Part shown: in pieces, positions 732 to 61,568 of the stretch
Layout of the letters: every line of letters starts with the position of its first letter
How positions within the stretch are numbered: the first letter of the stretch is position 1
Assembly: GCA_963576725.1 (NCBI GenBank)
Contig: OY755241.1
Coordinates: 76,317,701 to 76,381,700, forward strand
Direction: 5' to 3'
Source: Azorinus chamasolen
Taxonomy: Eukaryota > Mollusca > Bivalvia > Cardiida > Solecurtidae
Length of the DNA stretch: 64,000 nt
Made by a program: the position numbers and the translations under genes
Notes under the pieces: generated by a model
Database searches by the model: none
Told to the model about the DNA's origin: nothing
Seen by the model: only the letters and a program-made list of their open reading frames with translations

Positions 732-945
732 TGTAACTCTTTACTTCAGAAACACACCATTGCAAACAGAGTATACCCAGATCAGACGGCTCCTATAGGA
801 GCTGTCTGTAAAGGGTCAGCTCTGTTTGCTAATAATGTAACATACATATGATTCTACAGTTTCTGCCATGTCTATGTGCAATTATAACAGTTGATCTTAT
901 CGATATCCATGGTGCCATTATTTCTTACATAAAGTGTATGGTTAA
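732..945 (+). mobile_element. TTAA family C MITE, degenerate
   Basis: The left end GTAACTCTTTACTTC and right end GTATGGTTAA are decayed family C termini. The middle has GCAAACAGAGTA, GATCAGACGGCTCCTATAGG and a partly lost right arm ending in CTCTGTTTGC. The C-specific right spacer (GATTCTACAGTTTCTGCCAT) is clear. No protein is encoded. Confidence 0.7.
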
Positions 946-1322
946 AGAGGAAGTCCCTACAATGAACGCATATTTTCAATAATGTCATCAAACTTAATAT
1001 TTGTTATGGTCATTCATTATTATGAAGATTGTCAATTGAAACTTGTATTGAACACAATGCCCCTGTGATGCCAAAACAACAACGTTTTCAAAAAAAAAAT
1101 ATTATCGACCTTGGTCGAACAGTTAACGACACTAAAACGCGAGCCGAATAAATACTAATGCATTGCCGAATAACATATCAAAAGTATGCAAGTTGTGTAT
1201 TCTTCGGTGTTTAGTCGATTGGTTTTCTTACGATATACTTCTTTTCAGCAAATAAACAAATGAGTTTTGTATATTTTAGGCACTTTTGAACACATGTCGA
1301 ATGTAGGGACTTCCCCTTTAAG
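942..1322. mobile_element. MITE with TTAAAG.GGAAGTCCCTACA inverted ends
   Basis: The ends TTAAAGAGGAAGTCCCTACA (942-961) and TGTAGGGACTTCCCCTTTAA (1302-1321) are inverted repeats about 20 bp long with one mismatch. The interior (1195-1260, CGATTGGTTTTCTTACGA) is also found at 46.55-46.69 kb, so this is a dispersed family. It abuts or overlaps the TTAA of the family C copy to its left. The superfamily is not assigned. Confidence 0.65.
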
Positions 1323-1648
1323 ACAATATAAATAATGTTCAGTTTTATGCCGCTATGCAGGACCTGACTGGCATTTGTACACAACAGGGATCAAGACGAG
1401 ACATTGATTAACTCGGTGTCTCATCAGGGTCCAGACAACTTGACACTCGAATAGTTGTTTCTCAAAAGCTACAACAAACCAGAAATAAGAAAATTCGCTC
1501 CGCATCAGACTTTGAGCAGATGTCATTTTTACAGGATGATATGAATTAAATCAAATAAATGGAATATAAATTTGAGTATTTGAAAGCAATATTGGTGACA
1601 TTTAAGATAATTAGAATTATAAATACAGTGCAACTCATGCTATTTATA

Positions 1649-1777
1649 CAGTAAAACCCTGCTAATGCGACCACCTAAAAGAGGTATAATTCTGGGTAGT
1701 AGAGGCAAGTGGTAGCTTAATGCAGGACAAAAGTAATGCAGAAAACTCCTAGATGAGCTTTCTGCATTACATGTAAT
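1649..1777 (+). mobile_element. F3 MITE, left portion
   Basis: The element starts at CAGTAAAACC after TA and carries the F3 terminal segment GCTAATGCGACCACCTAAAA. It runs through the palindrome arm and tip to GAGCTTTCTGCATTAC. The right half is missing and the sequence passes into an older repeat at about 1778. Confidence 0.75.
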
Positions 1778-2159
1778 AACTTTAAAACTGAAGGAGGAGT
1801 TTGTGACACCCAAATCTCCATGTTTCATGCCAAAATGACAAAAATACCCAAAGTATTATTGGAGATAATTCTGCAATGCCCTGTGATAAACACATTAAAG
1901 TTATGTCTTAAATATCTACCATGTGTGGTTATTTTGTACACTAAGTATACACCGAATAAGTTTAAGATTGAAGAAGAAACCAGCTCCACAAGTTACATGC
2001 CAAAAATATCCAAAGTTCAAGGGGAGATAATACTGCAATGCCCAGGGATAAACGAGTGAAAATTGCGTCTTGCACATCTACCATTCACGGTTATTATGTA
2101 TACCAAATATAAACTGAATAACTTTCAGATTCAGCATCTGATATCTCTGTCGGAGTCTG
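1778..2159 (+). repeat. mollusc-type dispersed repeat, tandem partial units
   Basis: Two diverged units share CAAAAATA.CCAAAGT, GGGAGATAAT.CTGCAATG and ATCTACCATT.A.GGTTATT. A third copy lies at 2618-2910 and ends with a run of GACCGACCAACC-type repeats and GGGGGTATAATAA. I recognise the style from bivalve genomes; the exact family name is not claimed. Short open frames here are incidental. Confidence 0.6.
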
Positions 2160-2617
2160 AGGACAGGGCTAAAGGGTAGGTACTTTGGACTATGTCTACA
2201 AGCATCTTTATTTATTTTTATTTCTTTAATTTTATTGTAGTTTTCTGCTAAGTCAATGAAATTAACTCATACTTAGGTAAGTTTGGAACTTGTATGAGTT
2301 ACTTCCCTTTGACTGTCGTACTGCCCTGTGCGATCTTATGACATTCTAATTTTTCATTGTAAATTTCTGTGATACATGTAAAATGGGCTCAGTGCTTTTT
2401 CCATAATAAATTATATTTTGCTGATCAATGAAACTATATGTGATATACTATTTATTTAAAATACTTTCTATTTTTACAGGTTTCTATTTTATAGGTTGTT
2501 TGTATGTATTGTTACTGGATAATCTGATTATGTCGGACAATAGCTTCAAAGCTAATGTTTATTTGTTGATGTAAACCGACTATAAATAAATATTATCTTA
2601 TCTTATCTTATCTATCT
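2160..2617 (+). mobile_element. 3' end of a non-LTR retrotransposon (probable)
   Basis: The segment ends TGTAAACCGACTATAAATAA followed by a pentanucleotide tail of TTATC units (2594-2617), typical of 5'-truncated LINE 3' ends. It separates two units of the surrounding dispersed repeat, as an insertion would. No reverse transcriptase sequence is present, so only an untranslated tail remains. Confidence 0.5.
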
Positions 2618-2911
2618 TAGATTGTAGGAGAAGTTCCCCACACTAATTCCCCATATTTCATACGAAAATGACAAAAATTAACAAAGTTCAAGGGGAGATA
2701 ATTCTGCAATGGCCAGCGATGAACACGTAAAAATTGCGACTTGCACATCTACCATTCATGGTTATTATTTATGCCAAATATAAATTCAGTAACTTTAAAA
2801 CTGAAAGAGTAGTTTGCGACACAAGCTACCTATGTTCAAATGCGGACAGACCGACCAACCAACCGCCCGACCGACCGACAGGATGATTCCAGTATACCCC
2901 CTAACACAAGT
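2618..2911 (+). repeat. mollusc-type dispersed repeat, third unit with tail
   Basis: Same family as 1778-2159, with AAGTTCAAGGGGAGATAATT and ACATCTACCATTCATGGTTA. It ends with a GGACAGACCGACCAACC-like run and AGTATACCCCCTAACAC. Its end GCGGGGGTATAATAATGGGG is the seed of the following 83-bp array. Confidence 0.6.
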
Positions 2912-3901
2912 TTGCGGGGGTATAATAATGGGGTTATCAAGTAATTAAAACTTATGGGATAATCAAGAACATCTTTTGTTCAAAGTTCAATCTTTTGCGG
3001 GGGTATAATAATGGGGTAATCAAGAAATTAAAACTTATGGGATAATCAAGAACATCTTTTGTTCAAAGTTCAATCTCTTGCGGGGGTATACTAATGGGGT
3101 GTTCAAGAAATTAAAACTTATGGGATAATCAAGAACATCTTTTGTTCAAAGTTCAATCTTTTGCGGGGGTATAATAATGGGGTGTTCAAGAAATTAAAAC
3201 TTATTGGATAATCAAGAACATCTTTTGTTCAAAGTTCAATCTTTTTCGGGGGTATAATAATGGGGTTATCAAGAAATTAAAACTTATGGGATAATCAAGA
3301 ACATCTTTTATTCAAAGTTCAATATCTTGCGGGGGTATAATAATGGGGTGTTCAAGAAAATTTTTTAAAACTTATGGGATAATCAAGAACATCTTTTGTT
3401 CAAAGTTCAATCTTTTGCGGGGGTATAATAATGGGGTTATCAAGAAATTAAAACTTATGGGATAATCAAAAACATCTTTTGTTCAAAGTTCAATCTTTTT
3501 CGGGGGTATAATAATGGGGTTATCAAGAAATTAAAACGTATGGGATAATCCAGAACATCTTTTGTTCAAAGTTCAATCTCTTGCGGGGGTATAATAATGG
3601 GGTGTTCAAGAAATTTAAACTTATGGGATAATCAAGAACATCTTTTGTTCAAAGTTCAATCTTTTGCTGGGGTATAATAATAGGGTGTTCAAGAAATTAA
3701 AACTTATGGGATAATCAAGAACATCTTTTGTTCAAAGTTCAATCTTTTGCGGGGGTATAATAATGGGGCTATCAAGAAATTAAAACTTATGGGATAATCC
3801 AGAACATCTTTTGTTCAAAGTTCAATATTTTTCGGGGGTATAATAATGGGGTTATTAAGAAATTAAAACTTATGGGATAATCAAAAACATCTTTTGTTCA
3901 A
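2912..3901 (+). repeat. 83-bp tandem array, 12 units
   Basis: Units begin at CGGGGGTATAATAATGGGG at 2915, 2998, 3081, 3164, 3247, 3330, 3418, 3501, 3584, 3667, 3750 and 3833. Spacing is 83 bp throughout, except for one 88-bp unit with five extra T/A. Each unit continues AAATTAAAACTTATGGGATA and AACATCTTTTGTTCAAAGTT. Units are over 90 percent alike by eye, so the array is young. No long open frame. Confidence 0.95.
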
Positions 3902-4949
3902 ATGTATTTGCAAAATTTAATTAGACCTCATGCAGCCGAACTCTTTTTCTGTCGAAGAAATTGTACTTCTTGCACTTATAAAAATTTATTGGCAATTTCA
4001 CTTCTAAACCTAAATTCAGGGATGGATGGATGGTGTTACATATAAACATAATGTTAATGCTTCTAAAAGGGTTAAACAGTCACTAAGAAATAATGTAAAG
4101 CGGAAACGATTTTTCTCATTTGTCTTTTTTGTGAAGATTGTTCAAAATAGTTTGTTACAAAGAACACTGTATTAACTCTTCACCACATACAAGCTCTTCC
4201 ATTTAGATATGTATGGGGTGCAAGAAGGCACTTTCAAATTTGGCAACCCACCCATAGAAGTTTTTTTACTAATGCACAAACCAATTAGTACCATCTTTTC
4301 TGCGAATTCTATCCATGCATAGCTATTTTTTAAAGTGACCCCCACCACAGTACATATTTAAATAGAACTGGTACTGCCCTAAGTAACTAGTGAGTGAGTG
4401 AGTGGGTTGGGTTTTACGGCACCGCGACACTAAGTAACTAGTGAGTTCTTATACCAGAAGCCATGTCATCATTAAATAATATCCAAAGCAACAAAAATAA
4501 GGACATACCGCCTGTTCTGGGGATTTCTTTATATGCCCCTTCTGGCCCCTTTGCTCCCTCTGCTCGCTGAATCTTTTAAGTAGTGTATTTAAACTGTCTT
4601 TGTCAGCTGTGAAAAAATGTGAAAATCATGAGTACACTACTGGCAAATACATAAAAAAGAAATGTGCAAACAGTTTGGATCCAGATAAGAGAATGAGTAA
4701 GTAAGCATCCCATATGTTTGAGAATTGAGAAATAATCTACTTTGAGAATAGCTGCATGAAAAAAAGATATTTTTATCAGGAAATTAAATACTCTGTGTGC
4801 TTATTACTATTGTATTATGAATGAAAAAACTATCAACACTTAACTATAACAATACAAACTGATTTGCATGAGTTTTCATCAAAGCAAATATTTGCCAACT
4901 TATACACACCCATCAATACATACAACCCTTTCATTCATGAATATTTATG
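3902..4949. other. mostly featureless; short relic at 4386-4440
   Basis: No gene or intact element is seen. At 4386-4430 is GAGTGAGTGAGTGGGTTGGG followed by TTTTACGGCACC, which resembles the head of an abundant mollusc short repeat. TAAGTAACTAGTGAGT flanks it on both sides (about 4379 and 4432), which could be a target duplication. A weak E'-like fragment (GCAAACAGTTTGGATCC) is at about 4667. Confidence 0.45.
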
Positions 4950-5040
4950 TAAGAAAGCAAGCAGGGCAGGGCCTGATCAGAAGACTCCTATAAAAGCCAT
5001 CTTATCTGGGTTGACTCTGTTTGCAAAGGCGCAGAAAGAC
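4950..5040. mobile_element. TTAA-family hairpin relic
   Basis: A decayed central palindrome: GCAGGGCAGGGCCTGATCAG, a tip near TCCTATAAAAG, then CATCTTATCTGGGT and CTCTGTTTGCAAAGGCG. The terminal TTAA sequences are not recognisable. Confidence 0.55.
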
Positions 5041-7937: not shown

Positions 7938-8785
7938 AGGTGTAGACCTAGATCAGAGGGACCTACTATAGGAGTCTGGGTGTAGACCTAGATCAGAGGG
8001 ACCCACTCTAGGAGTCTGGGTGTAGACCTAGATCAGAGGGATCCTCTCTAAGAGTCTGGGTGTAGACCTAGATCAGAGGGATCCTCTAAGAGTCTGGGTG
8101 TAGACCTAGATCATAGGGACCCACTCTAGGAGTCTGGGTGTAGACCTATATAAGAGGGACCCACTCTAGGAGTCTGGGTGTAGACCTAGCTCAGAGGGAT
8201 CCTCTAAGAGTCTGGGTGTAGACCTAGATCAGAGGGACCCACTCTAGGAGTCTGGGTGTAGACCTAGATAAGAGGGACCCACTCTAGGAGTCTGGGTGTA
8301 GACCTAGCTCAGAGGGATCCTCTAAGAGTCTGGGTGTAGACCTAGATCAGAGGGATCCTCTAAGAGTCTGGGTGTAGACCTAGATCATAGGGACCCACTC
8401 TAGGAGTCTGGGTGTAGACCTATATAAGAGGGACCCACTCTAGGAGTCTGGGTGTAGACCTAGCTCAGAGGGATCCTCTCTAGGAGTCTTGGTGTAGACC
8501 TAGATCAGAGGGAATCTCTGGGAGTCTGGGTGTAGACCTAGATCAGATGGATCCTTTAGGAGTCGGGGTGTAGACCTAGATCAGAGGGATCCTCTAAAAG
8601 TATTCGTGTAAAACTAGATCCGAGGGATCCCCTAGAAGTCTGGATGTAGATCTAGATCCGAGGGATCCTCTAGGAGTATTGGTGTAGACTTAGATCAGGG
8701 GGACCCTCTCTAGGAGTTTGGGTGTAGACCTAGATGAGAGGGATCCTCTCTAGGATTCTGGGTGTAGACCTAGATCAGAGAAGCC
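7938..8785 (+). repeat. 36-40-bp minisatellite, about 21 units
   Basis: The unit reads GGTGTAGACCTAGATCAGAG then GGA(C/T)CC(A/T)CTCTAGGAGTCTG. Most units are 40 bp and some 36 bp. GACC-AGATCAGAGGG and CTCTAGGAG resemble one arm and tip of the TTAA-family hairpin, so the array probably grew from such an arm. The 3' units are more diverged than the central ones. Confidence 0.9.
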
Positions 8786-10329: not shown

Positions 10330-10337
10330 ACATGTAA

Positions 10338-12086: not shown

Positions 12087-12652
12087 TAAACAATACCAAA
12101 CAAGTTATTACTTAGGCTACTCACCGTATATTGATTCCATAATCCATGCGTACATCATATACCAAACTTAGCATTATCACTAGAAATATGTATACGTCAA
12201 TTGTTTGAAACGCTTAATATCCGTACGTGTATACGGTGATGTGTCTTTAATGCGGTCAACTTTCCAAGCAAATGACTCCACTGTATCCAGCTTGGGTATC
12301 CAGTGTGGATTTCCCCGGGGTGTTCATCTCGCGCGCGTCCCATGTAGATCAAGGTACACTAAATGTCTGCGCCGCATTTCTTACATTCTTGATGGGTTTG
12401 AATTTTATGTCACCTTATTTCTAAAACAAGACATGTTACAGTATGGTATTCTCCAGTTAATAAATGAATACAGTGTATCAAGTAGCTATTGCCAATCGTC
12501 GTTTCATACGATGTTTCAATCAATCTATCCCATGTTGGGTGCCAATTTCATAGGGTTTGTCATAAAAGGTCTGGTATAGATTTTATTCTAAGGGATCTGA
12601 AACAATGCAAAATACTTAAACAAAATGAATATTGGATTTTATTTATTTATTA
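12087..12652. other. unassigned sequence with a chance-length open frame
   Basis: An ATG-initiated frame of 109 codons runs 12250-12579. It has no recognisable domain, no evident splice context and a residue composition I cannot tell from chance. No transposon termini are seen in this stretch. Confidence 0.3.
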
Positions 12653-12856
12653 CATTAAAACCTCTCTATGTCGACCACTAAATTGTGTTTATTAATTGGT
12701 ATTTTGTGCAGGTGGTTGCTTAAAGCAAGGTGAAAGTATAACAGAACGCTCCTATAGGAGCGTTCTGTTTTACTTTCACCTTGCTTTAAGCATCCACCTG
12801 CGTTTAACACAAAATATTTGATGTATTTTAGTGGTCATTATAGAGAGGTTTTACTG
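12653..12856 (+). mobile_element. F1 MITE, full length, TA-flanked
   Basis: The left end CATTAAAACCTCTCTATG and right end CATAGAGAGG-type sequence closing in TTTTACTG are each flanked by TA. The interior is nearly one long palindrome: GCTTAAAGCAAGGTGAAAGT, the tip ACGCTCCTATAGGAGCGT, and ACTTTCACCTTGCTTTAAGC. A 204-bp element, the best F1 copy in the window. Confidence 0.9.
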
Positions 12857-13491
12857 TATCTGATTGTCGGAATCGACAGGCAGACAAACGTGCATGTATG
12901 GCGGTGCCTAGCATATTAACACACCCTACACACATCGTGCATAAACATTAACTGTAAAACAAGAATAATTATGGATGAAATGAAGATATAATTACCTCTG
13001 GGTAAAATGATAAATTTCCCCCAGATACAATGTATTTTATAAAAACTCTACCCAGTTTCTGAAACTGGATGCCGACTCGATGTATCGAAAAATACAAACG
13101 ACCCGCGATTCTCGTGCTTAGAGTTTGGTTTCAAAGTTAGTTGTTTTTTCCCTTTACCAAAACCACAATTTGTTAACTAATATTAATATGTAGTTACAGA
13201 AAGACATGTTTCAGTCTTGACTTATACATATTCATTTCTACGCTATGACAAACTTATTGATAGTTAAACAAAGCGCAAAAAGTACACGTAGATATGTATC
13301 TAAACCTGTATTTCATGAATATTTATGAAAGAAAAAAATGACATCATGGATATTAATTAGATTCACTTAAGTAGTCCCCTTTCGAGTAATGATTTGGACG
13401 TGTTAAACCTTTAAGTACTGCATGAGTATAATTATGTATGACAGACCCACCCATTATAAATACAAATTAACTAAATGAAGTTAGTAAAATA
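12857..13491. other. no recognisable gene
   Basis: AT-rich sequence. ATTTCATGAATATTTATGAA near 13311 recalls the family C spacer. No intact element and no convincing exon. Confidence 0.35.
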
Positions 13492-16516: not shown

Positions 16517-16791
16517 AATGGATGTTTTTCGCGCCTTTATTTGGTTTACCATTTGCCTATGTAATAATTGTGCCATATTTATAAAGTAGGATTAGCTGTT
16601 TGTAGATTAATGTTGTGTGTTCATATCGTTGGTCGGCTCTAAATGACCACCAGTGTCAATGGGACTAGTAAAACACCATTCATTCATTCATATTCTTGAG
16701 AGTAGTGATCCTTTCTCAGCCAAACATTTTCATTGGCTGCTAATGTTGTCCTTTACATCAGACTTTTGAAATATAAAGCTACAGTAAAACC

Positions 16792-16968
16792 TCTTTTAAC
16801 TGCCACTCTATTGTGTTAATTAGTTGGTATTTAGGGCAGGTGGCTGCTTAAAGCAAGGTGAACGTATAGGAGTGTTCTGTTTTATTTTCACCTTGCTTTA
16901 AGCAGTCGCCTGCATTAAACACTAAATAATTAATGTAGTTTAGTTACCATTATAGAGAGGTTTTACTG
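16792..16968 (+). mobile_element. F1 MITE with deleted palindrome arm, TA-flanked
   Basis: CAGTAAAACCTCTTTTAACT after TA and TATAGAGAGGTTTTACTG before TA. The left arm is GCTTAAAGCAAGGTGAACGT and the right TTTTCACCTTGCTTTAAGC. About 25 bp around the left side of the tip is missing compared with 12653-12856. Confidence 0.85.
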
Positions 16969-17107
16969 TATTGTGAAAAAAACAAACTCAAAAGTGATAG
17001 CTTGGTGAGCATTAATAATTATATATAGGCCGTTGCTTCATTCTGAAGGTCTTGGAGGACGATTTTAGAAAAATTGTTAAAAGGTTGCCAGTAGCCAGTA
17101 TTAACAA

Positions 17108-17338: not shown

Positions 17339-17771
17339 TTAACCCAGTCCCTCATAGGCTATTTTTAGATCCAGCCTCTTTGAATTAATCTACCGAAAAC
17401 GAGCATTAACCCTTTCCCTCATATAAACGTGCTTTCATGCATTTGTAAACAGAGTAGACCCAGATCAGACGGCTCCTAGCTAGAAGAGCCGTCTGATCAG
17501 GGTCTGCTCTGTTTGCTGATGGAATTTGATAGATCTATTTCCTTACTTTCTAAAATGGCTACAATGTTCCACCTTCCATTTTTCAATTTAACTACTTTGT
17601 TCATGAATATTCAACAGGTATGGATATTTGAAATAAATATAGAACAGGGAAAGGGTTAACTAGAGAAAAGGAAAAGTTTAGAATCTTGTTTATTTTTAAA
17701 ATCATTGTGATAAACAGAGGATTTGCATCTGCAGAGGCGTAGAAAGGCGTATTTATGGGGAAAAGGGTTAA
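17339..17771 (-). mobile_element. family B MITE, reverse, split by family A
   Basis: The left part TTAACCCAGTCCCTCATAGG to CTACCGAAAACGAGCATTAA resumes after the insertion at TTAACTAGAGAAAAGGAAAA and runs to GGCGTATTTATGG and GGGTTAA. Its palindrome (AAAATCATTGTGATAAACAG) has lost much of the second arm. The family A insertion occupies 17406-17659. Confidence 0.8.
17406..17659 (+). mobile_element. family A MITE nested in family B, TTAA duplicated
   Basis: Begins TTAACCCTTTCCCTCATATA and ends CAGGGAAAGGGTTAA, 254 bp. The hairpin is GCAAACAGAGTAGACCC-like with GATCAGACGGCTCC and AGCCGTCTGATCAGGGTC. Removing one TTAA and the element rebuilds family B (GAGCATTAACTAGAG). Confidence 0.9.
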
Positions 17772-20082: not shown

Positions 20083-20195
20083 TCATAGCAAACAGCAGAC
20101 CCTGATCAAACAGCTCCTATAGGAAGGAGCCAACTGAACTGGATCTACTCTGTTTGCAAAGATGTAGAAAGGCGTATTTATGGAGTAAAGTGTTA
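20083..20195 (-). mobile_element. family C MITE, reverse, right part
   Basis: AGCAAACAGCAGACCCTGAT, tip CTCCTATAGGAAGGAGCC, CTACTCTGTTTGCAAAG, then TATTTATGGAGTAAAGTGTT and AA. The distal half is not recognisable. Confidence 0.6.
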
Positions 20196-20242
20196 AAAAT
20201 GATACCCATGAGGTATGAAATGATTAGTCGTTTGCTAGGGGA

Positions 20243-25816: not shown

Positions 25817-25888
25817 GGCTTGGTAGCTCAGTCGGTAGAGTGTTGGTCAGTAAGCCAGAGGCCCTGGGTTCGAATCCCAGTCGAGTCG
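25817..25888 (+). pseudogene. tRNA-like SINE head (tRNA-derived)
   Basis: A box TAGCTCAGTCGGTAGAG and B box GGTTCGAATCC are intact. The 7-bp acceptor stem (GGCTTGG / TCGAGTC) and the T stem (CTGGG/CCCAG) pair, with some G-U. The anticodon loop is a base short (CAGTAA between TTGGT and GCCAG), so a working tRNA is unlikely. The 3' sequence continues with non-tRNA DNA, as in a SINE. On the opposite strand this makes an open frame that is only its shadow. Confidence 0.65.
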
Positions 25889-26885: not shown

Positions 26886-27025
26886 ATCATTCTATCAGCA
26901 AACAGAGTAGACCTGATCAGATGGCTCCTCTTGGAGCCATCTGATCTGGGTAAGAGGAGCCATCTGATCTGGGTCTACTCTGATTGCAAATAGGTGGAAA
27001 TGTGTTTATATGAGGGAAAGGGTTA
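26886..27025 (-). mobile_element. family A MITE right part with duplicated arm
   Basis: AGCAAACAGAGTAGACCTGA, tip CTCCTCTTGGAG, then the right arm GCCATCTGATCTGGGTAAGA, followed by the same arm again (GAGCCATCTGATCTGGGTCT). It ends TTATATGAGGGAAAGGGTTA. The repeated arm suggests slippage at the hairpin. Confidence 0.7.
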
Positions 27026-27775: not shown

Positions 27776-28278
27776 TTAACCCATTCCCGCATATTGACGC
27801 CTTTTGACGCCCCTGTAAAAGTCACTTTTTTAACCCTTTCCCTGTTCATTACAATTTTCAAAACCTAATGAATATTCATGGACAAAATAGTTATAATGAA
27901 ATATGGACGGTTGAACACTGTAGCCATTTTACGAAGTATAGACACAGATTTGTTAAATTCCATTAGCAAACAGAGCAGACACTGATCAGACGGCTCCTAT
28001 AAGAGCCATCTGATCTGGGTCTTCTCTGTTTGCAAACACGTGAATACATGTTTATATGAGGGAAAGGGTTAAACCATTCTGATAAACAGAGCATTTGCTC
28101 CATAGGAGCAGAATAGACCCTGGCCAGGTGACTCTTGTATGAGCTGGCTGTCTGAACAGGATCTGCTGTGTTGAGTATGGAAATGTATAGATGTGATTCT
28201 ACAGTTTCAGTCATGATCAAAATATCTTGTGTTTATACGCCATTATAAAAAAATAAACAAATATTATAATATTATTTC
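27776..28278 (+). mobile_element. family B/C chimera split by family A
   Basis: The left part TTAACCCATTCCCGCATATT to AAAGTCACTTTT is family B. After the A insertion it continues ACCATTCTGATAAACAGAGC, ATTTGCTCCATAGGAGCA, and then switches to family C (AATAGACCCTGGCC, GATTCTACAGTTTCAGTCAT, ACGCCATTATAA). The switch falls at GCA(AA), present in both hairpins. Confidence 0.75.
27830..28072 (-). mobile_element. family A MITE nested in family B, TTAA duplicated
   Basis: TTAACCCTTTCCCTGTTCAT to TATATGAGGGAAAGGGTTAA, 243 bp. Hairpin: GCAAACAGAGCAGACACTGA, tip GGCTCCTATAAGAGCC, ATCTGATCTGGGTCTTCTCT. Removing it rebuilds family B (GTCACTTTTTTAAACCATTC). Confidence 0.9.
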
Positions 28279-31597: not shown

Positions 31598-31700
31598 ACT
31601 GTTAGTTATTTTTATGTTTTGAGTTATTATTGTAATTGTCTTTGAGCTATTTTTATGTTTTGAGTTATTATTGTAATTGTTTGTATTTGTTCTTAAATTG

Positions 31701-33740: not shown

Positions 33741-33836
33741 ACTGTTTGTTATTTTTGAGTTATTATTGTAATTGTCTTTGAGCTATTTTTATGTTTTGAG
33801 TTATTATTGTAATTGTTTGTATTTGTTCTTAAATTG

Positions 33837-34078: not shown

Positions 34079-34275
34079 ATTGTTAGATATATTTTTGTGT
34101 TTTGAGTTATTATTGTAATTGTTTTTTATTAGTTTTGAAATTGTTAAATTGTTAATTGTTAGCTCTCAAATTGTTAAACTGTTAATTGTTATTGTGATAT
34201 TGTTTATTGTTATTGTTGAGATATTTTTGTGTTTTGAGTTATTGTTGTAATTGTTTTGTATTTGTTCTTAAATTG

Positions 34276-34515
34276 TTAACCCTTTCCCTCATATAAACGT
34301 GTTTTCACGCATCTGCAAACAGAGTAGACCCAGACTAGACAGCTCCTAGAGGAGCCGTCTGATCATGGTCTGCTCTGTTTTCTAATGGAATTTGATAGAT
34401 CTGTTCCTTTACTTTCTAAAATGGCTACAATGTTCCACTGTCCATATTTAATTTTGTAAATGAATATTCAGTAGGTATTGGAAATTGGCTAAATATAAAA
34501 CAGGGAAAGGGTCAA
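34276..34515 (+). mobile_element. family A MITE, array copy 7
   Basis: Variant 'CCGTC'; the right TTAA is mutated to TCAA (GGAAAGGGTCAAACTG). Because the left TTAA is intact, this is a point change after insertion. Confidence 0.95.
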
Positions 34516-34618
34516 ACTGTTAGTTATTTTTATGTTTTGAGTTATTATTGTAATTGTCTTTGAGCTATTTTTATGTTTTGAGTTATTATTGTAATTGTTT
34601 GTATTTGCTCTTAAATTG

Positions 34619-34858
34619 TTAACCCTTTTCCTCATATAAACGTGTTTTCACGCATCTGCAAACAGAGTAGACCCAGACTAGACAGCTCCTAGAGGAGCCG
34701 TCTGATCATGGTCTGCTCTGTTTTCTAATGGAATTTGATAGATCTGTTCCTTTACTTTCTAAAATGGCTACAATGTTCCACTGTCCATATTTAATTTTGT
34801 AAATGAATATTCAGTAGGTATTGGAAATTGGCTAAATATAAAACAGGGAAAGGGTTAA
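34619..34858 (+). mobile_element. family A MITE, array copy 8
   Basis: Variant 'CCGTC', TTAA-bounded, 343 bp after copy 7. Two 'CCGTC' copies in a row break the alternation seen elsewhere. Confidence 0.95.
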
Positions 34859-34961
34859 ACTGTTAGTTATTTTTATGTTTTGAGTTATTATTGTAATTGT
34901 CTTTGAGCTATTTTTATGTGTTGAGTTATTATTGTAATTGTTTGTATTTGTTCTTAAATTG

Positions 34962-35203
34962 TTAACCCTTTCCCTCACATATAAACATGTTTTCACGCAT
35001 CTGCAAACAGAGTAGACCCAGACTAGACAGCTCCTAGAGGAGCCATCTGATCAGGGTCTGCTCTGTTTACTAATGGAATTTGATAGATCTGTTCCTTTTC
35101 TTTCTAAAATGGCTACAATGGTTCACTGTCCATATTTAATTTTGTCAATGAATATTCAGTAGGTATTGAAAATTGACTAAATATTAAACAGGGAATGGGT
35201 TAA
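34962..35203 (+). mobile_element. family A MITE, array copy 9
   Basis: Variant 'CCATC', 1125 bp after copy 6 and sharing its AAACAGGGAATGGGTTAA end, so they are duplicates of one unit. Confidence 0.95.
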
Positions 35204-35400
35204 ATTGTTAGATATATTTTTGTGTTTTGAGTTATTATTGTAATTGTTTTTTATTAGTTCTGAAATTGTTAAATTGTTAATTGTTAGCTCTCAAATTGTT
35301 AAACTGTTAATTGTTATTGTGATATTGTTAATTGTTATTGTTGAGATATTTTTGTGTTTTGAGTTATTATTGTAATTGTTTTGTATTTGTTCTTAAATTG

Positions 35401-35640
35401 TTAACCCTTTCCCTCATATAAACGTGTTTTCACGCATCTGCAAACAGAGTAGACCCAGACTAGACAGCTCCTAGAGGAGCCGTCTGATCATGGTCTGCTC
35501 TGTTTTCTAATGGAATTTGATAGATCTGTTCCTTTACTTTCTAAAATGGCTACAATGTTCCACTGTCCATATTTAATTTTGTAAATGAATATTCAGTAGG
35601 TATTGGAAATTGGCTAAATATAAAACAGGGAAAGGGTTAA
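35401..35640 (+). mobile_element. family A MITE, array copy 10
   Basis: Variant 'CCGTC', TTAA-bounded, 1125 bp after copy 7. It retains the intact right TTAA that copy 7 lost. Confidence 0.95.
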
Positions 35641-35743: not shown

Positions 35744-35969
35744 TTAACCCTTTCCCTCATATATAAACATGTTTTCACGCATCTGCAAACAGAGTAAATC
35801 CAGATCAGACGGCTCCTCTACCCAGATCAGATGGCTCCTAGAGCTGTCTGATCAGGGTCTGCTCTGTTTGCTAATGGAATTTGATAGATCTGTTTCTTTA
35901 CTTTCTTTTGTCAATGAATATTCAGTAGGTATTGAAAATTGGCTAAATATTAAACAGGGAAAGGGTTAA
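35744..35969 (+). mobile_element. family A MITE, array copy 11, with rearranged hairpin
   Basis: TTAA-bounded. The left arm is doubled (CCAGATCAGACGGCTCCTCT, then CCAGATCAGATGGCTCCTAG) and part of the right spacer is deleted (CTTTACTTTCTTTTGTCAAT). Confidence 0.9.
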
Positions 35970-38007: not shown

Positions 38008-38218
38008 TGTTATCAACCCTTTACTCAATGAATATTCATGTAAAAATTAATGACATCATAGTAATCTTTAAAATGGCATATTAACACAGAATCTTTTTAT
38101 ATCATAAGTATTAAGTAAACAGAGCAGACCCTGATCGGACGACTCCTTTAGCTAGAGGAGCCGTCTGATCTGGGTCTACTCTGTTTGCAAAGGCGCAGAG
38201 AGGCGTATTTATGGGCTA
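38008..38218 (-). mobile_element. family C MITE, reverse
   Basis: CAACCCTTTACTCAATGAAT, TTAATGACATCATAG, then AGTAAACAGAGCAGACCCTG, tip CCTTTAGCTAGAGG, GCCGTCTGATCTGGGTCTAC, and GCGTATTTATGGGCTA. Terminal TTAA sequences are mutated. Confidence 0.7.
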
Positions 38219-40394: not shown

Positions 40395-40531
40395 AATAGA
40401 AACTGTAGCAACAGATCTCTATAATTTTATAAGCAATCGGAGCAGATCCTTTTCAAACGGCTCCTATAGGAGCCATCTGATCTAGGTCTACCCTTTTTGC
40501 ATTAAAATATGTCGCGAGTAAATGGTTAAGG
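40395..40531 (-). mobile_element. TTAA-family MITE, right portion
   Basis: AGCAATCGGAGCAGATCCTT, tip GGCTCCTATAGGAGCC, ATCTGATCTAGGTCTACCCT, and an end GCGAGTAAATGGTTAA. Probably family C in reverse. Confidence 0.6.
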
Positions 40532-40619: not shown

Positions 40620-40965
40620 GAAACTGCCATAAGCGATGAATTATTCATTGAATATAATAATCTTATGATGAAGGCGGCTGCTTAATGCTTAATACATGGT
40701 AAATGTAATGCAAAAAGTCACCCGTTGAAACCATTGTGATAAATAGAGCATTGCTCCTATAGGAGCAAATGCTCTATTTATCACAATGGTTTCAAACTAC
40801 AAATTTCTAAAAATTTTCCTTTTCTCTAGTTAATGCTCCGGTTCGGTAGATTTATTCAAAAAGGTTGGATCTAAAAATAGCTTATGAGAGAATGGGTTAA
40901 GCCAGCCCCGCTTTAAGATTCAGAATTAAGCCTATTTAAAATGGTCGCTTAAGATCGGCTCTACT
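40620..40965. mobile_element. F element carrying a family B MITE (left end deleted)
   Basis: GCGGCTGCTTAATGCTTAAT is the F arm. Family B begins without its left end at GCAAAAAGTCACCCGTTGAA, has a near-perfect hairpin (tip TTGCTCCTATAGGAGCAAA) and ends GAGAGAATGGGTTAA at 40903. F resumes at TTAAGCCAGCCCCGCTTTAA and closes CGGCTCTACTGTA. Confidence 0.65.
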
Positions 40966-41365: not shown

Positions 41366-42281
41366 TTCTGTTGATTTATTTAGACAGAATTCAAAGTCGT
41401 TCTCATGCAAAACTTCACATTTTTGCTAGAAAATGAGTACAAAATTGTAATATATATATTATACGTATGTCTACCCTAAACCACAGGGGTCTGGACCGCT
41501 TCATGGGGGTCTATATGTACTATATAATATAACTAGCAGAACGGATTTCCGTGTACCACAGACTGTAACTCTTACAATTTAAATGACAATTTCGTAAGTC
41601 TTTCGTACGGTGGCACTGAGGTGACATATGCAAGAAATTTTTTTCAAGTTTGTTTTCCCGAGATATTTTTTTTTATTATCTCGAGAAAACGAAACAAAGT
41701 TCGTTTTCCTGAGATAATATTTTTTATTATCTCAAGAAAACGAAGTAGTTCGTTTTGACGAGATAAATAAATTTATTATCTCGAGAAAACGAAACAAAGT
41801 TCGTTTTCCTGAGATAATATTTTTTATTATCTCAAGAAAACGAAGTAGTTCGTTTTGACGAGATAAATAAATTTATTATCTCGAGAAAACGAAAAAAGTT
41901 CGTTTTCATGAGATAATTTTTTTTATTATCTCAAGAAAACGAAGTAGTTCGTTTTAACGAGATAAAAAAAATTATTATCTCGAGAAAACGAAATAGTTCG
42001 TTTTAACGAGATAAAAAAAATTATTATCTCGAGAAAACGAAACAAAGTTCGTTTTCCTGAGATAATTTTTTAAGTCGTGCGCACGACTTAATAAGCCAAT
42101 CAGAACCCTCCATCAGAGTCAACAGTTTTCGCAAGTATTTGAGGCCTATGAGAACATGGCCGAGACAGGGGATGAACTTTTATGACGTCATAATTGCGTT
42201 CATCTTACCTCCTACAAAATTCTTGTCATTCCATTGGTCAATAAAGGTCACGAGAAACCCCTATAGATTCCTTATGAGGGT

Positions 42282-43600: not shown

Positions 43601-44202
43601 GGGAAACGAGAAACCCCATAGATGAACAATTGACTCTGACGGAGGGTTCTGATTGGCTTATTAAGTCGTGCGCACGACTTAAAAAATTATCTCAGGAAAA
43701 CGAACTTTGTTTCGTTTTCTCGAGATAATAAAAAAAATTATCTCGTTAAAACGAACAGTTTCGTTTTCTCGAGATAATTTTTTTTTTTATCTCGTTAAAA
43801 CGAACTACTTCGTTTTCTTGAGATAATAAAAAAAATTATCTCATGAAAACGAACTTTTTTCGTTTTCTCGAGATAATAATTTTTTTTATCTCGTCAAAAC
43901 GGACTACTTCGTTTTCTTGAGATAATAAAAAAAATTATCTCAGGAAAACGAACTTTGTTTCGTTTTCTCGAGATAATAATTTTTTTTATCTCGTAAAAAC
44001 GAACTACTTCGTTTTCTTGAGATAATAAAAAAAAATATCTCAGGAAAACGAACTTTGTTTCGTTTTCTCGAGATAATAAAAAAAATTATCTCGTAAAAAC
44101 GAACTTTTTTTCGTATTCTCGAGATAATAAAAAGAATTATCTCGGGAAAACAAACTTGAAAAAAATTCTTGCATATGTCACCTCAGTGCCACCGTACTTT
44201 CG

Positions 44203-44510
44203 GCTATTGAAAGCCAATATATTTTTCTATCAAATGAATATAATCTTATAACGGTAACTTATGAACAAGTATCAATCCAACAATGATTTCCTCAAATTTT
44301 TTAGTTTTTTTGGTCATTGACAAACGTTCGTTCACCCCGGTTTCACTGTATCACAGCAATAACCTGGCAATTTGCAGTTAAAAAATGGCGTGGTTTAATA
44401 AAACGAATAAATTCTATCACCCACCTCCAATTTTAGTCTTCAGCATCAACAGAATGATGTAAAACTAGCGAGTTTTGTCAGTTTGCTTCAAAAGGTGGAG
44501 CCTTCTGCAT
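44203..44510. other. no recognisable feature
   Basis: Sequence between the foldback element and the 60-bp array. I see no repeat ends and no open frame of note. Confidence 0.4.
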
Positions 44511-45066
44511 TACTTTTGTCCTGCATCTAGCACCCAGAATTATACCTCTTTTAGGTGGAGCGTTCTGCATTACTTTTGTCCTGCATCTAGCACCCAGAAT
44601 TATACCTCTTTTAGGTGGAGCGTTCTGCATTACTCTTGTCCTGCATCTAGCACCCAGAATTATACCTCTTTTAGGTGGAGCGTTCTGCATTACTCTTGTC
44701 CTGCATCTAGCACCCAGAATTATACCTCTTTTAGGTGGAGCGTTCTGCATTACTTTTGTCCTGCATCTAGCACCCAGAATTATACCTCTGTTAGGTGGAG
44801 CGTTCTGCATTACTCTTGTCCTGCATCTAGCACCCAGAATTATACCTCTTTTAGGTGGAGCGTTCTGCATTACTTTTGTCCTGCATATAGCACCCAGAAT
44901 TATACATGTACCTCTTTTAGGTGGAGCGTTCTGCATTACTTTTGTCCTGCATCTAGCACCCAGAATTATACCTCTTTTAGGTGGAGCGTTCTGCATTACT
45001 TTTGTCCTGCATCTAGCACCCAGAATTATACCTCTTTTAGGTGGTCGCATTAGCGGGGTTTTACTG
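44511..45066 (+). repeat. 60-bp tandem array (9 units) inside an F3 MITE
   Basis: The unit is GGTGGAGCGTTCTGCATTAC, TTTTGTCCTGCATCTAGCAC, CCAGAATTATACCTCTTTTA. Only one unit has a 6-bp insertion (ATGTAC). The array ends in the normal F3 terminus GGTGGTCGCATTAGCGGGGT and TTTACTG before TA. 60 is a multiple of 3, so it opens frames of 192 and 190 codons on the two strands; neither is a gene. Confidence 0.95.
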
Positions 45067-48205: not shown

Positions 48206-48451
48206 TCAACCCTTTCACCGCCACAGTCGAGTAAATCCACCACGACAAATAGTGCAGTCCCAGATCAGACGCCGCCTTTTCAAGGCGGCGTCTGATCAGG
48301 GACTTCACTATTTGTTTCAATCTCTAGTTCTATATATGTGCTTTATTCCTTTGAAATTTGCATTCATTTATCTCATTTCCTTATTTTACTGAATGATTTA
48401 ACAAACTTAGATTGCAGACGACAATTAGAAATTTGGCGCCGAAAGGGTTAA
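48206..48451 (+). mobile_element. family E-like MITE with CG-rich perfect hairpin
   Basis: TCAACCCTTTCACCGCCACA to TTGGCGCCGAAAGGGTTAA. Hairpin: CAAATAGTGCAGTCCCAGAT, CAGACGCCGCCTTTTCAAGG, CGGCGTCTGATCAGGGACTT, CACTATTTG. Arms pair over about 30 bp with one or two changes. Confidence 0.8.
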
Positions 48452-48519: not shown

Positions 48520-48945
48520 CTGATAGCTTAATACAAGACAAAAGTTATGAAGAAAGCTCTTGTTGAAGGTTTCAACATTACTACTACCCTGCATTAACCC
48601 TTTTCCTGATAGAAGCGGCTTTAAGCGAGTTTAATATATTCCTCCACTGAAGAAAATAGTTCCAATTTTTACAATAATGAACATATAGCATCATAAATAG
48701 TTTCTATATTCTAGGAGGTGGTAGCTTAAAGCAGGCTGAAAGTAAAGCAGAATGCGCATTAAGGCGCATTCTGCTTTACTTTCAACCTACTTTAAGTGGT
48801 CATCTGTCTTCAAAACTAGAAATAGGCTATTGGGTAAAGGGTTAAGCAACCGCCCTATTTGTCCTGCACCTGATTGTATAGACTCAATGTTGATACACTA
48901 TGTGGTCTCATTATCGAGAATTTACTGTACAGCAATAAACAGCAG
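48520..48945. mobile_element. F MITE split by a TTAA element
   Basis: CAAGACAAAAGTTATGAAGA and CTACCCTGCATTAA lie left; TTAAGCAACCGCCCTATTTG and TCTCATTATCGAGAATTTAC (then TGTA) lie right. Confidence 0.65.
48594..48845. mobile_element. composite TTAA element carrying an F-type hairpin
   Basis: TTAACCCTTTTCCTGATAGA to CTATTGGGTAAAGGGTTAA, TTAA-bounded inside an F element. Within it is a palindrome, GCTTAAAGCAGGCTGAAAGT, AAGCAGAATGCGCATTAAGG, CGCATTCTGCTTTACTTTCA, typical of F elements. An F copy probably inserted in the TTAA element, or the palindrome was exchanged. Confidence 0.6.
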
Positions 48946-49415: not shown

Positions 49416-49795
49416 CCCGATCCCCGTTGTATATTCATGTCAGATATATCGACATCATGAATATTTATGAGCTGCATTTTTGATAATGACATACAGTAAA
49501 ACCTCTCTATAACGGCCACTAAATTACATCAAGTATTTTGTGTTAAAGGCAGGTGGCTGCCAAGGCAAGGTGAAAGTAAAACAAAACGCTCCTATAGGAG
49601 CGTTCTGTTTAACTTTCATCTTGCTTTAAGCAGTCAACTACCCTAAATACCAACTAATTTAACACAATTTAGTGGCCGTTATAGAGAAGTTTTACTGATA
49701 TACACAATATTGTTTGGTACTAATACAAACTACAGAGTCAGATCTATCATAATATTTCATAAGCAAGCAGAGCAGACCCTGATCAGCAGATAGAA
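49412..49795 (-). mobile_element. family C MITE, reverse, split by F1
   Basis: TTAACCCGATCCCCGTTGTA, ATCGACATCATGAATATTTA and TTTGATAATGACATA lie left of an F1. TATACACAATATTG, CAGAGTCAGATCTATCATAA and AAGCAAGCAGAGCAGACCCT lie right. The palindrome's second arm is lost at CAGCAGATAG. Confidence 0.65.
49494..49697 (+). mobile_element. F1 MITE nested in family C
   Basis: CAGTAAAACCTCTCTATAAC after TA and GGCCGTTATAGAGAAGTTTT (then ACTG). Arms GGCAAGGTGAAAGTAAAAC and ACTTTCATCTTGCTTTAAGC; tip ACGCTCCTATAGGAGCGT. 204 bp. Confidence 0.9.
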
Positions 49796-51136: not shown

Positions 51137-51364
51137 TTAAGCCATTTGCTCCCACGATCAAATACATGGGACGTAGGCAAACAGTGTAGACACTGATCAG
51201 ACGACGCATAATGCGGCGTCTGATCACCGTCTACACTGTTTGCTGATAGGAATTTCAATATAAAACAAAAAGAAACTGAACATTAAGGCCAGGCACCCCT
51301 TAGATAAAAATGGACAAATCCAATATATAAACATGGAAGAATCCACTGGGAGCAAATTGGTTAA
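51137..51364 (+). mobile_element. TTAA family Q MITE, 228 bp
   Basis: TTAAGCCATTTGCTCCCACG and CTGGGAGCAAATTGGTTAA are inverted ends unlike A-E but still TTAA-bounded. The hairpin is almost perfect: GGCAAACAGTGTAGACACTG, ATCAGACGACGCATAATGCG, GCGTCTGATCACCGTCTACA, CTGTTTGC. Confidence 0.8.
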
Positions 51365-52033: not shown

Positions 52034-52075
52034 TATACTTAAATTCGCAGAGGACCACAATGGAATTAACCCTTT

Positions 52076-52279
52076 CGCTGCCAATGCTGGATCTGTGGTT
52101 TCCGATGCAAACAGTTTGGATCCAGATTAGACGCCGAGTAACTCGGCGTCTTCTCATGATCCAAACTGTTTGTTACTGATACTATATTTTTGAAATAAAA
52201 ATGAAGAAAATCAAAAGAGTAAAATTTGTAGCAGACGGCAAAGTTAGCAGACGACAGAGTTTGGCAGCGAAAGGGTTAA
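52076..52279 (+). mobile_element. family E MITE, best copy
   Basis: TTAACCCTTTCGCTGCCAAT to GAGTTTGGCAGCGAAAGGGT (then TAA), 204 bp. Hairpin AAACAGTTTGGATCCAGATT, AGACGCCGAGTAACTCGGCG, TCTTCTCATGATCCAAACTG, TTTG. Confidence 0.9.
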
Positions 52280-52779: not shown

Positions 52780-53000
52780 TTATCCCCTAGTGACGCATTT
52801 TTGCGCATCTATAAACGTCACTTTATGAAACCATTGTGATAAATAGAGCATTTGCTCCTATAGGAGCAAATGCTCTATTTATCACAAAGGTTTCAAACTA
52901 CAAAATTCTATTGTTTTCCTTTCCTCTAGCTAATGCTCCTTTTCGGTAGATACATTCAAAGAGGTTGGGTCTAAAAATAGCCTATGAGATATTGAGTTAA
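52780..53000 (+). mobile_element. family B MITE
   Basis: TTATCCCCTAGTGACGCATT to CTATGAGATATTGAGTTAA. Perfect hairpin around TTTGCTCCTATAGGAGCAAA with arms GAAACCATTGTGATAAATAG and CTATTTATCACAAAGGTTTC. An F relic follows directly at TTAAGCGACCATCAAAAGAG (to 53155). Confidence 0.85.
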
Positions 53001-53186: not shown

Positions 53187-53298
53187 CCTGACAGAGTAGA
53201 CAGAGATCAGACAGTTGTTGCGCCTGACAGAGTAGACAGAGATCAGACTGTTGCTGCACCTGACAGAGTAGACAGAGATCAGACTGTTGCTGCGGGTG
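53187..53298 (+). repeat. 36-bp tandem repeat, 3 units
   Basis: The unit is CCTGACAGAGTAGACAGAGA, TCAGACTGTTGCTGCA. ACAGAGTAGACAGAGATCAGAC is a TTAA-family hairpin arm. The frame gives DRVDRDQTVAAP repeats, not a gene. Confidence 0.85.
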
Positions 53299-53413: not shown

Positions 53414-53733
53414 ACAGTTGAACGTCGACATCTCGAACAGCAAGGGACCATACATTACTTCGAGATATCAGAAAGTGGAGACATCCCATTTCTAAATTGG
53501 ACACTTTCTCACATTTACTGCTTAATGCAGGTCTAAAGTAATGCTGAAATCTGCTATAGGAGCTTTCAGCATTGCTTTACACCTATATATATATATGTGT
53601 CACCTGTGTTACCAAATATGCGTAAGAATACATTTTAGAACTATTCTGTATTGTAAGTTTTTGGACGGACGAAACATTTACTTCGAGTTAAATCGAAGTT
53701 CGAGTTATCCGAGATCGATATATTGAAGTTCAA
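53414..53733 (+). mobile_element. F4 (pogo/Tigger-like) MITE
   Basis: CAGTTGAACGTCGACATCTC after TA at the left; GATCGATATATTGAAGTTCA at the right. The middle has TGCTTAATGCAGGTCTAAAG, TAATGCTG and tip GCTATAGGAGC. Subterminal ACTTCGAGATATCAGAAAG and GTTCGAGTTATCCGAGATCG are typical of pogo-like ends. Confidence 0.75.
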
Positions 53734-56559: not shown

Positions 56560-56760
56560 TACAAACCGTTTATCTTTAGCCATTTGGACAGAAGTTTTCA
56601 CCCACTCCATTTTCAAAATTCAAGCTGTGACCAGTTTGCCCACGACACTGTCAAACAGTTTGGATCCTGATGAGACGCCGAGTTACTCGGCGTCTCATCT
56701 GGATCCAAACTGTTTGCATAGGTAATCAATCATCCGCCTACAGCAGCCTAAACTTTAAAG
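56560..56760 (-). mobile_element. family E' MITE with near-perfect hairpin
   Basis: Hairpin 56652-56716: CAAACAGTTTGGATCCTGAT, GAGACGCCGAGTTACTCGGC, GTCTCATCTGGATCCAAACT, GTTTG, one mismatch in about 30 bp. Right end CTACAGCAGCCTAAACTTTA. Left spacer as in 46693-46893 (AAAATTCAAGCTGTGACCAG). Confidence 0.85.
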
Positions 56761-56974: not shown

Positions 56975-57308
56975 ACAGTTGAGCTTCGATACATCGAACT
57001 TCAAGGGACCACACAAATTAGTTCGAGATAACAGAAGTTCGATTTATCTGATTTCTGATCTCGATAATTTCTGGATAATAATCTGGATAACAAGTTCACG
57101 TCCTAATGCAGGTCTAAAGTAATGCTGACAGCTCCTATAGGAGCTTTCAGTATTACTTTAGACCTGTATTAAGCTGGCATACGTTTATCTAAATATGCGT
57201 GGGTAAATATTTTAGAGCATTTCTATATTGTGAGTTTTGGAAGGACTGGACTTTTAGTTCGAGTTATCCGAGTTTGAGTTACCCGAGTTCGAGAAATCGA
57301 AGTTCAAG
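56975..57308 (+). mobile_element. F4 (pogo/Tigger-like) MITE
   Basis: CAGTTGAGCTTCGATACATC after TA, and GTTCGAGAAATCGAAGTTCA at the right. A palindrome of CCTAATGCAGGTCTAAAGTA, tip GCTCCTATAGGAGC, ATTACTTTAGACCTGTATTA. 334 bp, about the same length as 53414-53733. Confidence 0.85.
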
Positions 57309-60189: not shown

Positions 60190-60258
60190 TATATTTCTCC
60201 AACCAACCCTATGTTGTGACCAATGAGTGGTCATAACAGAGGGTTGCGTGGAGAAAGG
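60190..60258. mobile_element. family I palindromic MITE
   Basis: ATTTCTCCAACCAACCCTAT, GTTGTGACCAATGAGTGGTC, ATAACAGAGGGTTGCGTGGA form a short hairpin. Confidence 0.7.
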
Positions 60259-60720
60259 ACGACTTTAGTGTTTCAGTACACGCCTTAACTGTTGATCTGC
60301 ATTGTGTCTGTTTCTTACAAATTCTTCTCCTGGGTGATAAATCATAGCTTTCCATCATAAATAATAAGACAGGTTTACAGGTCGGAGAGAAAATAATGTG
60401 ATGACCGAGTGAAAGGCGTAGTATCTGAGAACCTTTGTTACTATTAGACTGATTTACAACATCCCCAGAACAGATAACTAGAAAAGACAGAATAATAAAG
60501 AGCTCAGATTTCCGCGATAATTGATCAACATTATCTCAGTTATTTAAACATAGGGCTTAAAAAAGACTGATGATATGTTCTGTATGCCAAAGAATATAAA
60601 CCTTATGGATTTCTAAGAATAGAAAAATACTTACTCCTCGTCAATTTTGAATATTGTCGGCTTAAATTCTGATTTTGAGCTGTCTTTATTAAGTAAGTCT
60701 AATTCGATCAAGTAATCTGG
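60259..60720. other. no recognisable feature
   Basis: No gene, repeat end or hairpin recognised. Confidence 0.35.
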
Positions 60721-60800
60721 AGATTGCAAACAGATTGGATGCAAATGAGACGCCGAGTTACTCGGCGTCTCATCTGGATCCAAGCTGTTTGCATATGCAA
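60721..60800 (-). mobile_element. E'-type hairpin, near-perfect
   Basis: TTGCAAACAGATTGGATGCA, AATGAGACGCCGAGTTACTC, GGCGTCTCATCTGGATCCAA, GCTGTTTGCATATGC. Confidence 0.75.
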
Positions 60801-60898
60801 ATCAGTTTGCACTTAGCATGAGAAAGGTTGGTGTTTATATAGTGTTACATGTAAATTGCTACACACAAATGGGATTCAAACAGAACCCACTATTTGTC

Positions 60899-61154
60899 AT
60901 AACCCTTTCCATCATTAATATATATACAGGAAGTCGTAATATTATGGATATTAGTTTCATGATTTTTTATTATGGCATATGGATAAATGTACATGGATTT
61001 TGAGCCCTGGCAGAAATTGTAGAATCAGATCAACATAAATGTTATAAGCAAACAGGATCGATCCTGGACAGACGTATCATACATAGTTGTCTGATTTGGG
61101 TCTACTCTGTTTGCCAATGTGTTAAAAGCTAGTATAAATGGAGCAAAGGGTTAA
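60899..61154 (-). mobile_element. family C MITE, reverse
   Basis: ATAACCCTTTCCATCATTAA to AAATGGAGCAAAGGGTTAA, 256 bp. Hairpin GCAAACAGGATCGATCCTGG, GACAGACGTATCATACATAG, TTGTCTGATTTGGGTCTACT, CTGTTTGC. Confidence 0.8.
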
Positions 61155-61364
61155 AGACTAAATAAACTTCTAGAAAATGGTTATTTACAGATTAAAAAAC
61201 AGTCAAATAATTTACAGACGTCGCTCAATATATAAAACTTATGAATATTCGTGTAAGAAATAATGCCATTCTAATAGTATTGAGCTAAGATTAATACTGA
61301 TATATAAAACATAGACGTTTTGGGCAATGCAGCATGCCAATGCTATCCATAAGAAAACAACATA

Positions 61365-61568
61365 CAGTAAACCCCGCTAGTGCGACCACTTAATAAACAG
61401 CCACTGGTGTCATTTAAAGCAGGTGGTTGCTTAATGCAGGACGAAAGTTATGCAGAAAGCTCCTAGAGGAGCTTTCTGCATAACTTTCGTCCTGCATTAA
61501 GCTACCGTCTGCCTCTGCCACCCAAAAGTATGCCCCTTTTTGGTGGTCGCATTAGCGGAGTTTTACTA
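61365..61568 (+). mobile_element. F3 MITE with 60-bp perfect palindrome
   Basis: CAGTAAACCCCGCTAGTGCG after TA, and GTGGTCGCATTAGCGGAGTT (then TTACTA) before TA. 61437-61496 is an exact palindrome: GCAGGACGAAAGTTATGCAG, AAAGCTCCTAGAGGAGCTTT, CTGCATAACTTTCGTCCTGC. 204 bp; the youngest-looking F copy. Confidence 0.95.

Follow-up and report, generated by a model that had tools for sequence, protein, structure and literature searches.

Why should mobile elements with different ends and different target sites carry the same short sequence at the tip of a long central palindrome? The question is raised by a 64,000-nt stretch of contig OY755241.1 of the bivalve Azorinus chamasolen (hereafter the window; GC content 37%), which is densely filled with palindrome-bearing miniature inverted-repeat transposable elements (MITEs) whose palindromes fall into four arm families, here called A, B, E and F. 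Families A, B and E sit in elements with TTAACCC...GGGTTAA ends, and F sits mostly in CAGT...ACTG elements flanked by TA. The consensus half tip of the palindrome is GCTCCTA in A, B and F alike; in E it is GCCGAGT. An earlier note on this DNA had reported one core in both the TTAA and the TA group: the core is indeed present at the places it named and the half tip of A, B and F is the same, but the two groups are not as clean as it supposed. What is new here, on the basis of one 64-kb window, is a tip common to TTAA and TA/CAGT elements.

The core 12-mer CTCCTATAGGAG occurs exactly at seven sites (790, 12749, 40461, 40754, 49589, 52855 and 57132), has a one-base variant at 61460, and is found with at most two mismatches at 47 sites (the seven exact ones and 40 more), against a mean of 1.77 in 100 shuffled sequences. 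Ten of the 47 lie within 30.6-35.5 kb, and nine of these are copies of one tandemly repeated element, so that the count overstates the independence of the sites. A scan for palindrome centres that was blind to the core returned 63 centres in the window and none in two simulated sequences. Half arms were counted by edit distance, with the tip excluded and thresholds set against one simulated sequence; this census superseded one by regular expressions, which caught only part of the copies. Among the 266 halves that it gave, 79 left/right pairs face each other: 46 of A, 15 of E, 10 of F and 8 of B, none of them combining the arms of two families. When folded as single-stranded DNA, all seven palindromes tried gave long hairpins, and five folded palindromes with the core or a near variant have a GCTCC/GGAGC stem closed by a 4-nt loop (TATA, TAGA or CATA). 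The steadier common part is this stem with its 4-nt loop, rather than the whole 12-mer.

Exact cores stand in palindromes of three arm families. Those with A arms are at 763-828 (core 790-801, found by site scan and census and folding into a DNA hairpin with a TATA loop) and 40434-40499 (core 40461-40472); those of family B are at 40728-40792 (core 40754-40765) and 52828-52893 (core 52855-52866). Elements of A, B and E have TTAA at both ends with a CC[C/T]T start. By hand count, 21 of the 79 palindromes have on both sides, within 330 nt, a sequence that differs from TTAACCCTTT at no more than 1 position in 10, a number that includes eight starting at 30.96-35.44 kb in one repeated stretch, one (F48526) that spans two elements and one (F48724) that is the F-arm case discussed below, and in which an end need not belong to the same element as the palindrome. 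Among random 330-mers, 0-1 mismatch to such an end on one side was seen in 10 of 500. The A element at 17406-17659 (plus strand) has exact TTAACCCTTT / AAAGGGTTAA ends and an extra TAGCTAG in its tip; two A palindromes, at 17446-17515 and 38116-38187, have a similar extra TAGCTA between the halves of the tip. Nine repeated A elements with core CTCCTAGAGGAG form tandem rows in two blocks at 30570-35640 (plus strand), with AT-rich spacers between them.

Family F presents the other type of end. The F1 element at 12651-12858 is a near-perfect palindrome (107-nt arms, 81% complementary) with CAGT-type ends, flanking TA and an exact core at 12749-12760, and the F3 element at 61363-61570 has CAGT-type ends and flanking TA around the core variant CTCCTAGAGGAG (61460-61471). 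These are the two of the ten F pairs with CAGT inverted ends on both sides, at no more than 3 mismatches in 14, and a TA duplication. For two unpaired F elements, at 49492-49699 (F1, exact core at 49589-49600) and 16780-16970 (centre damaged), both CAGT-type ends were located by edit distance. The remaining F copies have a CAGT-type end on one side only or are decayed, and decay is found in many of the MITE copies in the window. An F4 palindrome at 57101-57174 has the exact core at 57132-57143 and a differing CAGT-type left end (CAGTTGAGCTTCGATAC); a second palindrome of this type, at 53520-53593 (end approximate), has a one-mismatch core (CTGCTATAGGAG) and a right half outside the census threshold. 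We take the F ends, CAGT with TA, to be pogo-like (Tc1/mariner). The different termini that had been assigned to the two groups were thus recovered as TTAA for A, B and E and mostly CAGT/TA for F, but not for every F-arm member, since TTAA ends enclose the one at 48724.

Compared between families, tip and arm prove separable: A and E share arms and not the tip, whereas A, B and F share the tip and not the arms. With the nine A copies at 30.96-35.44 kb left out, the 14-nt tip GCTCCTATAGGAGC was matched at no more than 3 mismatches in 14 by 19 of 37 tips in A, 5 of 10 in F, 3 of 8 in B and 0 of 15 in E; the innermost tip base is only 0.5-0.7 conserved in A and F. Beyond the 7-nt half tip, the number of shuffles, out of 5000, that came up to the similarity of the arms was 953 to 1111 for A-F, 556 to 5000 for F-B and 5000 for A-B. 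A homology of the A and F arms beyond the tip was considered and set aside as not significant against these shuffles. The arms of A and E, in contrast, are alike at a score that none of 5000 shuffles reached, yet their tips agree at 2 of 7 bases. Whether the interior is better conserved than the ends across families has no single answer, since it is so for the 14 nt of the tip in A, B and F and not for the arms. Could the agreement be coincidence, GC-rich hairpin tips being few in kind and a 64-kb window having happened on three matching families? There are just three independent families, and when the letters of nine tips were permuted two became identical in 2107 of 300,000 trials; three became identical in none, and the consensus TA beside the stem matches as well, poorly kept as its innermost base is. 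The nine permuted tips were not all independent, since three of them belong to the same arm type and the arms of E resemble those of A, but chance of this sort seems to us very improbable.

It had also been claimed that only E-type elements use another core, which proved wrong. Within E, the element at 52066-52279 (plus strand; TTAA ends, CCCTTTCGCTGCC) has the tip GCCGAGTAACTCGGC, and the palindrome at 56652-56716 has the tip GCCGAGTTACTCGGC with both arms at zero edits from the E arm pattern. Tips other than the core are found too on A-arm copies at 48246 and 51178 and on the F-arm copy at 48724. The first of these lies in a TTAA-type element at 48206-48451 (plus strand), whose left end is now TCAA and whose A-like arms enclose the tip GCCGCCTTTTCAAGGCGGC; the second lies in a TTAA-type element with other ends at 51137-51364 (plus strand), with A-like arms and a third tip, ACGCATAATGCGG. 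The core is absent, moreover, from palindromes with other arms (5627, 16258, 25392, 33245, 37147, 58455 and 60224) and from arrays at 41.7-44.0 kb.

Larger parts than the tip are also found in unexpected company. The TTAA-ended element at 48594-48845 (19-nt inverted ends, 84%) holds an F-arm palindrome at 48724-48797 with tip TGCGCATTAAGGCGCA, and an F-arm palindrome between TTAA ends implies that palindromes pass between the TTAA and TA groups. Of the 15 bases at the very end of this element, 14 agree with an A end (14 of 200 shuffles score as well), and the element itself has inserted into a TTAA in another F copy's right arm. The left end of a B element at 29482 is identical at 38 of 44 nt to the end of an A copy at 20089 (0 of 200 shuffles). 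This A copy is a palindrome with its adjoining TTAA end at 20089-20196 (minus strand), to which the 44-nt match extends; the B element, at 29482-29705 (plus strand), has TTAA ends and lies inside a TTAA of an F right arm, as the F arm before 29482 and the F remainder after 29705 show by eye. A and B thus share end and tip without arms, the converse of what is seen for A and E.

Such insertions bring to mind another origin for the shared core of F, namely nesting, the F core being a TTAA element that had inserted into the TTAA of a TA element. A TTAA is indeed present in the F arms at the junction of inner and outer parts (GCTTAATGCAGG), and TTAA elements do occupy such F-arm sites (29482 and 48594). 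But GCTTAATGCAGG can be read as F's own end (CCTGTCTTAAGC) in inverted orientation, a CCCT end is missing from the inner block of F, and not one of the 19 loose matches examined resembles an empty site; we tried and rejected this explanation, which of all those considered seems the least probable.

Because arms and tips assort independently, because B has its end and its tip, but not its arms, in common with an A copy, and because an F palindrome lies in a TTAA-ended element, we favour exchange or shared descent of the tip: through template switching or gene conversion, palindromic master elements would pass tips and palindromes to one another, the tip being a module shared by descent. We put the probability of this reading at roughly 45%. 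The elements would be non-autonomous DNA transposons, each made up of its ends with a long palindrome at the centre, and GCTCC-N4-GGAGC, the hairpin tip that is outermost in this palindrome, would be inherited by descent as a module. Palindromes undergoing replication or repair may extrude hairpins; template switching or gene conversion between masters of different families could then move the tip, and at times a whole palindrome, across transposon types, after which transposition would amplify the new master, and its copies would decay later without clear protection of the tip. Recombination between palindromic masters, as the means by which the tip spread, is what we infer from the pattern of sharing. 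On the side of exchange we also count the symmetric changes in both arms between F1 and F3 and the higher frequency of substitutions in tips than in inner arms, both given below. That the hairpin tip is a transferable module, with tip-first cruciform recombination moving the 14-bp tip between superfamilies, is a more doubtful proposal, if a possible one.

The fate of the tip after insertion bears on a different explanation, functional convergence, by which transposition or a host factor that binds the cruciform or an RNA hairpin favours masters with a GCTCC-N4-GGAGC tip. Such a preference would fit the occurrence of the tip in elements with different ends, and a stem that is steady while its 4-nt loop varies. 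Substitutions were counted in 70 palindromes located by outer anchors (33 of A, 15 of F, 13 of E and 9 of B, not including the A copies at 30.9-35.45 kb) and were more frequent in the tip (173 of 1063 nt) than in the inner arm (191 of 1570 nt; z 3.0, p 0.0027), the tip being higher in all four families, which speaks against this explanation; copies with other tips were scored as substituted, however, so that part of the excess is turnover of tips and not decay. The 33 palindromes of modal tip length (17 in A, 7 in E, 6 in F and 3 in B) give a mixed picture. Identity is lower in the tip than in the arm for F and for the left halves of A; the right halves of A have about the same or a higher identity in the tip (0.87 for the innermost seven, against 0.81), and in E and B the tip equals or exceeds the arm. 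The results for E, for B and for the right halves of A are on the side of convergence. Other tips have spread too, 8 of the 15 E copies lying within two mismatches of their own tip, and at gathering scores Rfam gave a single match in the window, a tRNA, and no known RNA family for the tip. Selection for the tip may still act on master elements alone, but convergence strikes us as decidedly improbable, and there is no clear sign that the host protects the tip after insertion. The tip was also considered as a hot spot for insertions and deletions, and the excess was not significant. As for the two explanations offered in the earlier note, exchange of cores or selection by a host or replication process, exchange (or shared descent) is thus the one we retain; selection on inserted copies finds little support.

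Common ancestry is a further explanation: the palindromes of A, B and F would all derive from one, the arms having diverged in concert past recognition and the tip having changed least. Concerted change does occur. Between the F1 palindrome at 12754 and the F3 palindrome at 61465, 8 of 44 columns changed symmetrically in both arms and 6 asymmetrically, while three of the four half tips kept GCTCCTA; the symmetric columns imply that some arm change is concerted, as hairpin-templated correction would give. B and an A copy have their end as well as their tip in common, and CAGANNGCTCCTA can be read in the consensus half arms of both A and F, at 11 of 13 positions. Against descent from one palindrome, the similarity of the A-F, F-B and A-B arms beyond the tip is at the level of shuffled sequences, within families substitutions are commoner in the tip than in the inner arm, and E retained the arms of A and not its tip. 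We hold this explanation to be unlikely, though less so than convergence.

Several results weigh against exchange of tips and palindromes among masters. The sole F palindrome with TTAA ends (48724) has a variant tip, so that the tip itself was not caught moving, and none of the 79 palindromes joined an A arm to an arm of F or B. Outside its palindrome the element at 48594-48845 has only a weak kinship with F: of six F elements compared with its right flank, the best agrees at 13 of 16 bases (a score reached by 8 or 10 of 200 shuffles), and for the other five the score was reached by 27 to 119 of 200. Insertions and deletions are not significantly enriched at the tip (23 in 1063 nt against 23 in 1570 nt, p 0.12; p 0.09 in a laxer set). 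In the 14 remaining comparisons between two F copies, from 0 to 8 columns were symmetric, fewer than were asymmetric. All 12 A elements compared (for example 17446, 30610 and 50666) have an A in the arm on the short side and a T at the same position in the other; this lasting A/T mismatch implies that the arms are not freely homogenised and that concerted change is limited. The A element at 51178, one of four further A elements outside those 12, reads T in both arms. Finally, all comparisons rest on the one window.

Irregular joins were noticed by eye at several places. At 28071-28175 a B left arm and tip (GCTCCATAGGAGC) run straight into an A palindrome, a recombinant or a deletion junction beside the tip, and close by an A element is inserted in the left part of that B element. 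The A palindromes at 26899-26986, 33523-33606 and 35786-35870 have additional arm pieces joined at the tip or a few bases from it. In four minisatellites (7939-8780, 29190-29397, 44493-45044 and 53187-53294) the unit is seemingly part of a palindrome, with A arms in three and an F right arm in that at 44493-45044, where the join is near the tip. Other repeats include an 83-bp tandem repeat in twelve copies at 2911-3902 and two arrays (41647-42065 and 43681-44158) whose palindromic unit, TTCGTTTTC...GAAAACGAA, is about 49-51 bp long and unrelated to the core. The tRNA-like sequence at 25817-25888 (Rfam RF00005, 49 bits) is possibly the head of a short interspersed nuclear element.

Searches farther afield added little. 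Five exact patterns found no relatives in viral_contigs. Ten pattern matches in bacterial records of genome_contigs were read as chance, since an opposite A arm was not to be found within 80 nt of any of them (edit distances of 7 to 10 in 19 at best). A protein search with two open reading frames that span palindromes gave no match. The window has 20 open reading frames of at least 110 codons, 12 of which, by reading, overlap tandem repeats; no transposase was recognised among the 20 by eye, and no family search was made.

If tips and palindromes do pass between superfamilies, MITE families would not be traceable by their interiors, and unrelated mobile elements would be able to exchange parts by way of palindrome repair; a region as dense in copies as this one would be a test bed for palindrome recombination in animal genomes. 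Should the tip be a transferable module, it would be a sequence that invades unrelated mobile elements without a transposase of its own.

How do these elements compare with known systems? Among the matches listed in our literature search, judged mostly by title and the start of the abstract and with subscription journals largely outside coverage, there was no report of a tip common to TTAA and TA MITEs. The statement in the earlier note that no described system explains such sharing is nonetheless too strong. In the coral CMITEs, according to the accessible text of their description, an internal region is conserved across families with different terminal inverted repeats, although all of them are TTAA elements (PMC2872659). 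Like elements of the window, they are TTAA MITEs with mostly CCCTTT-type ends that form tandem arrays of whole elements (compare 30570-35640), and the authors suspected a role in transposition for the shared region, which would be in line with functional convergence. They differ in being about 100 bp long, and the strings "palindrom" and "hairpin" are absent from the main text (PMC2872659); in the window the shared part is the hairpin tip only, and it reaches TA/CAGT elements. The CMITE internal consensus had no match in the window, scoring 15 on either strand against 14-16 for ten shuffles.

Palindromic MITEs of clams, like the coral CMITEs, are close precedents, and two mollusc systems were compared. 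The MITE-like consensus 1 of Lucina pectinata, as described in the part of the report consulted, is 210 bp long with 30-bp imperfect inverted ends and a self-complementary centre of 77 bp, and similar fragments occur in other molluscs (PMC4732748); by this description it resembles our elements in combining inverted ends with a palindromic centre, and it differs in that no target duplication was found (PMC4732748). The modular MITEs of the bivalve Pearl family, including DTC84, share with the window a modular interior and a conserved palindrome near a repeat junction, but have internal tandem repeats instead of a single long palindrome (PMC5139131). The accessible text of the same report places 13 of 16 breakpoints of one mollusc satellite DNA at a 12-bp palindrome (PMC5139131), which we count in favour of exchange between palindromic masters. 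Finally, the ends and the TTAA of A, B and E are those of piggyBac/TTAA MITEs and the CAGT with TA of F is that of pogo-like (Tc1/mariner) MITEs, whereas an internal tip common to both kinds is part of the definition of neither.

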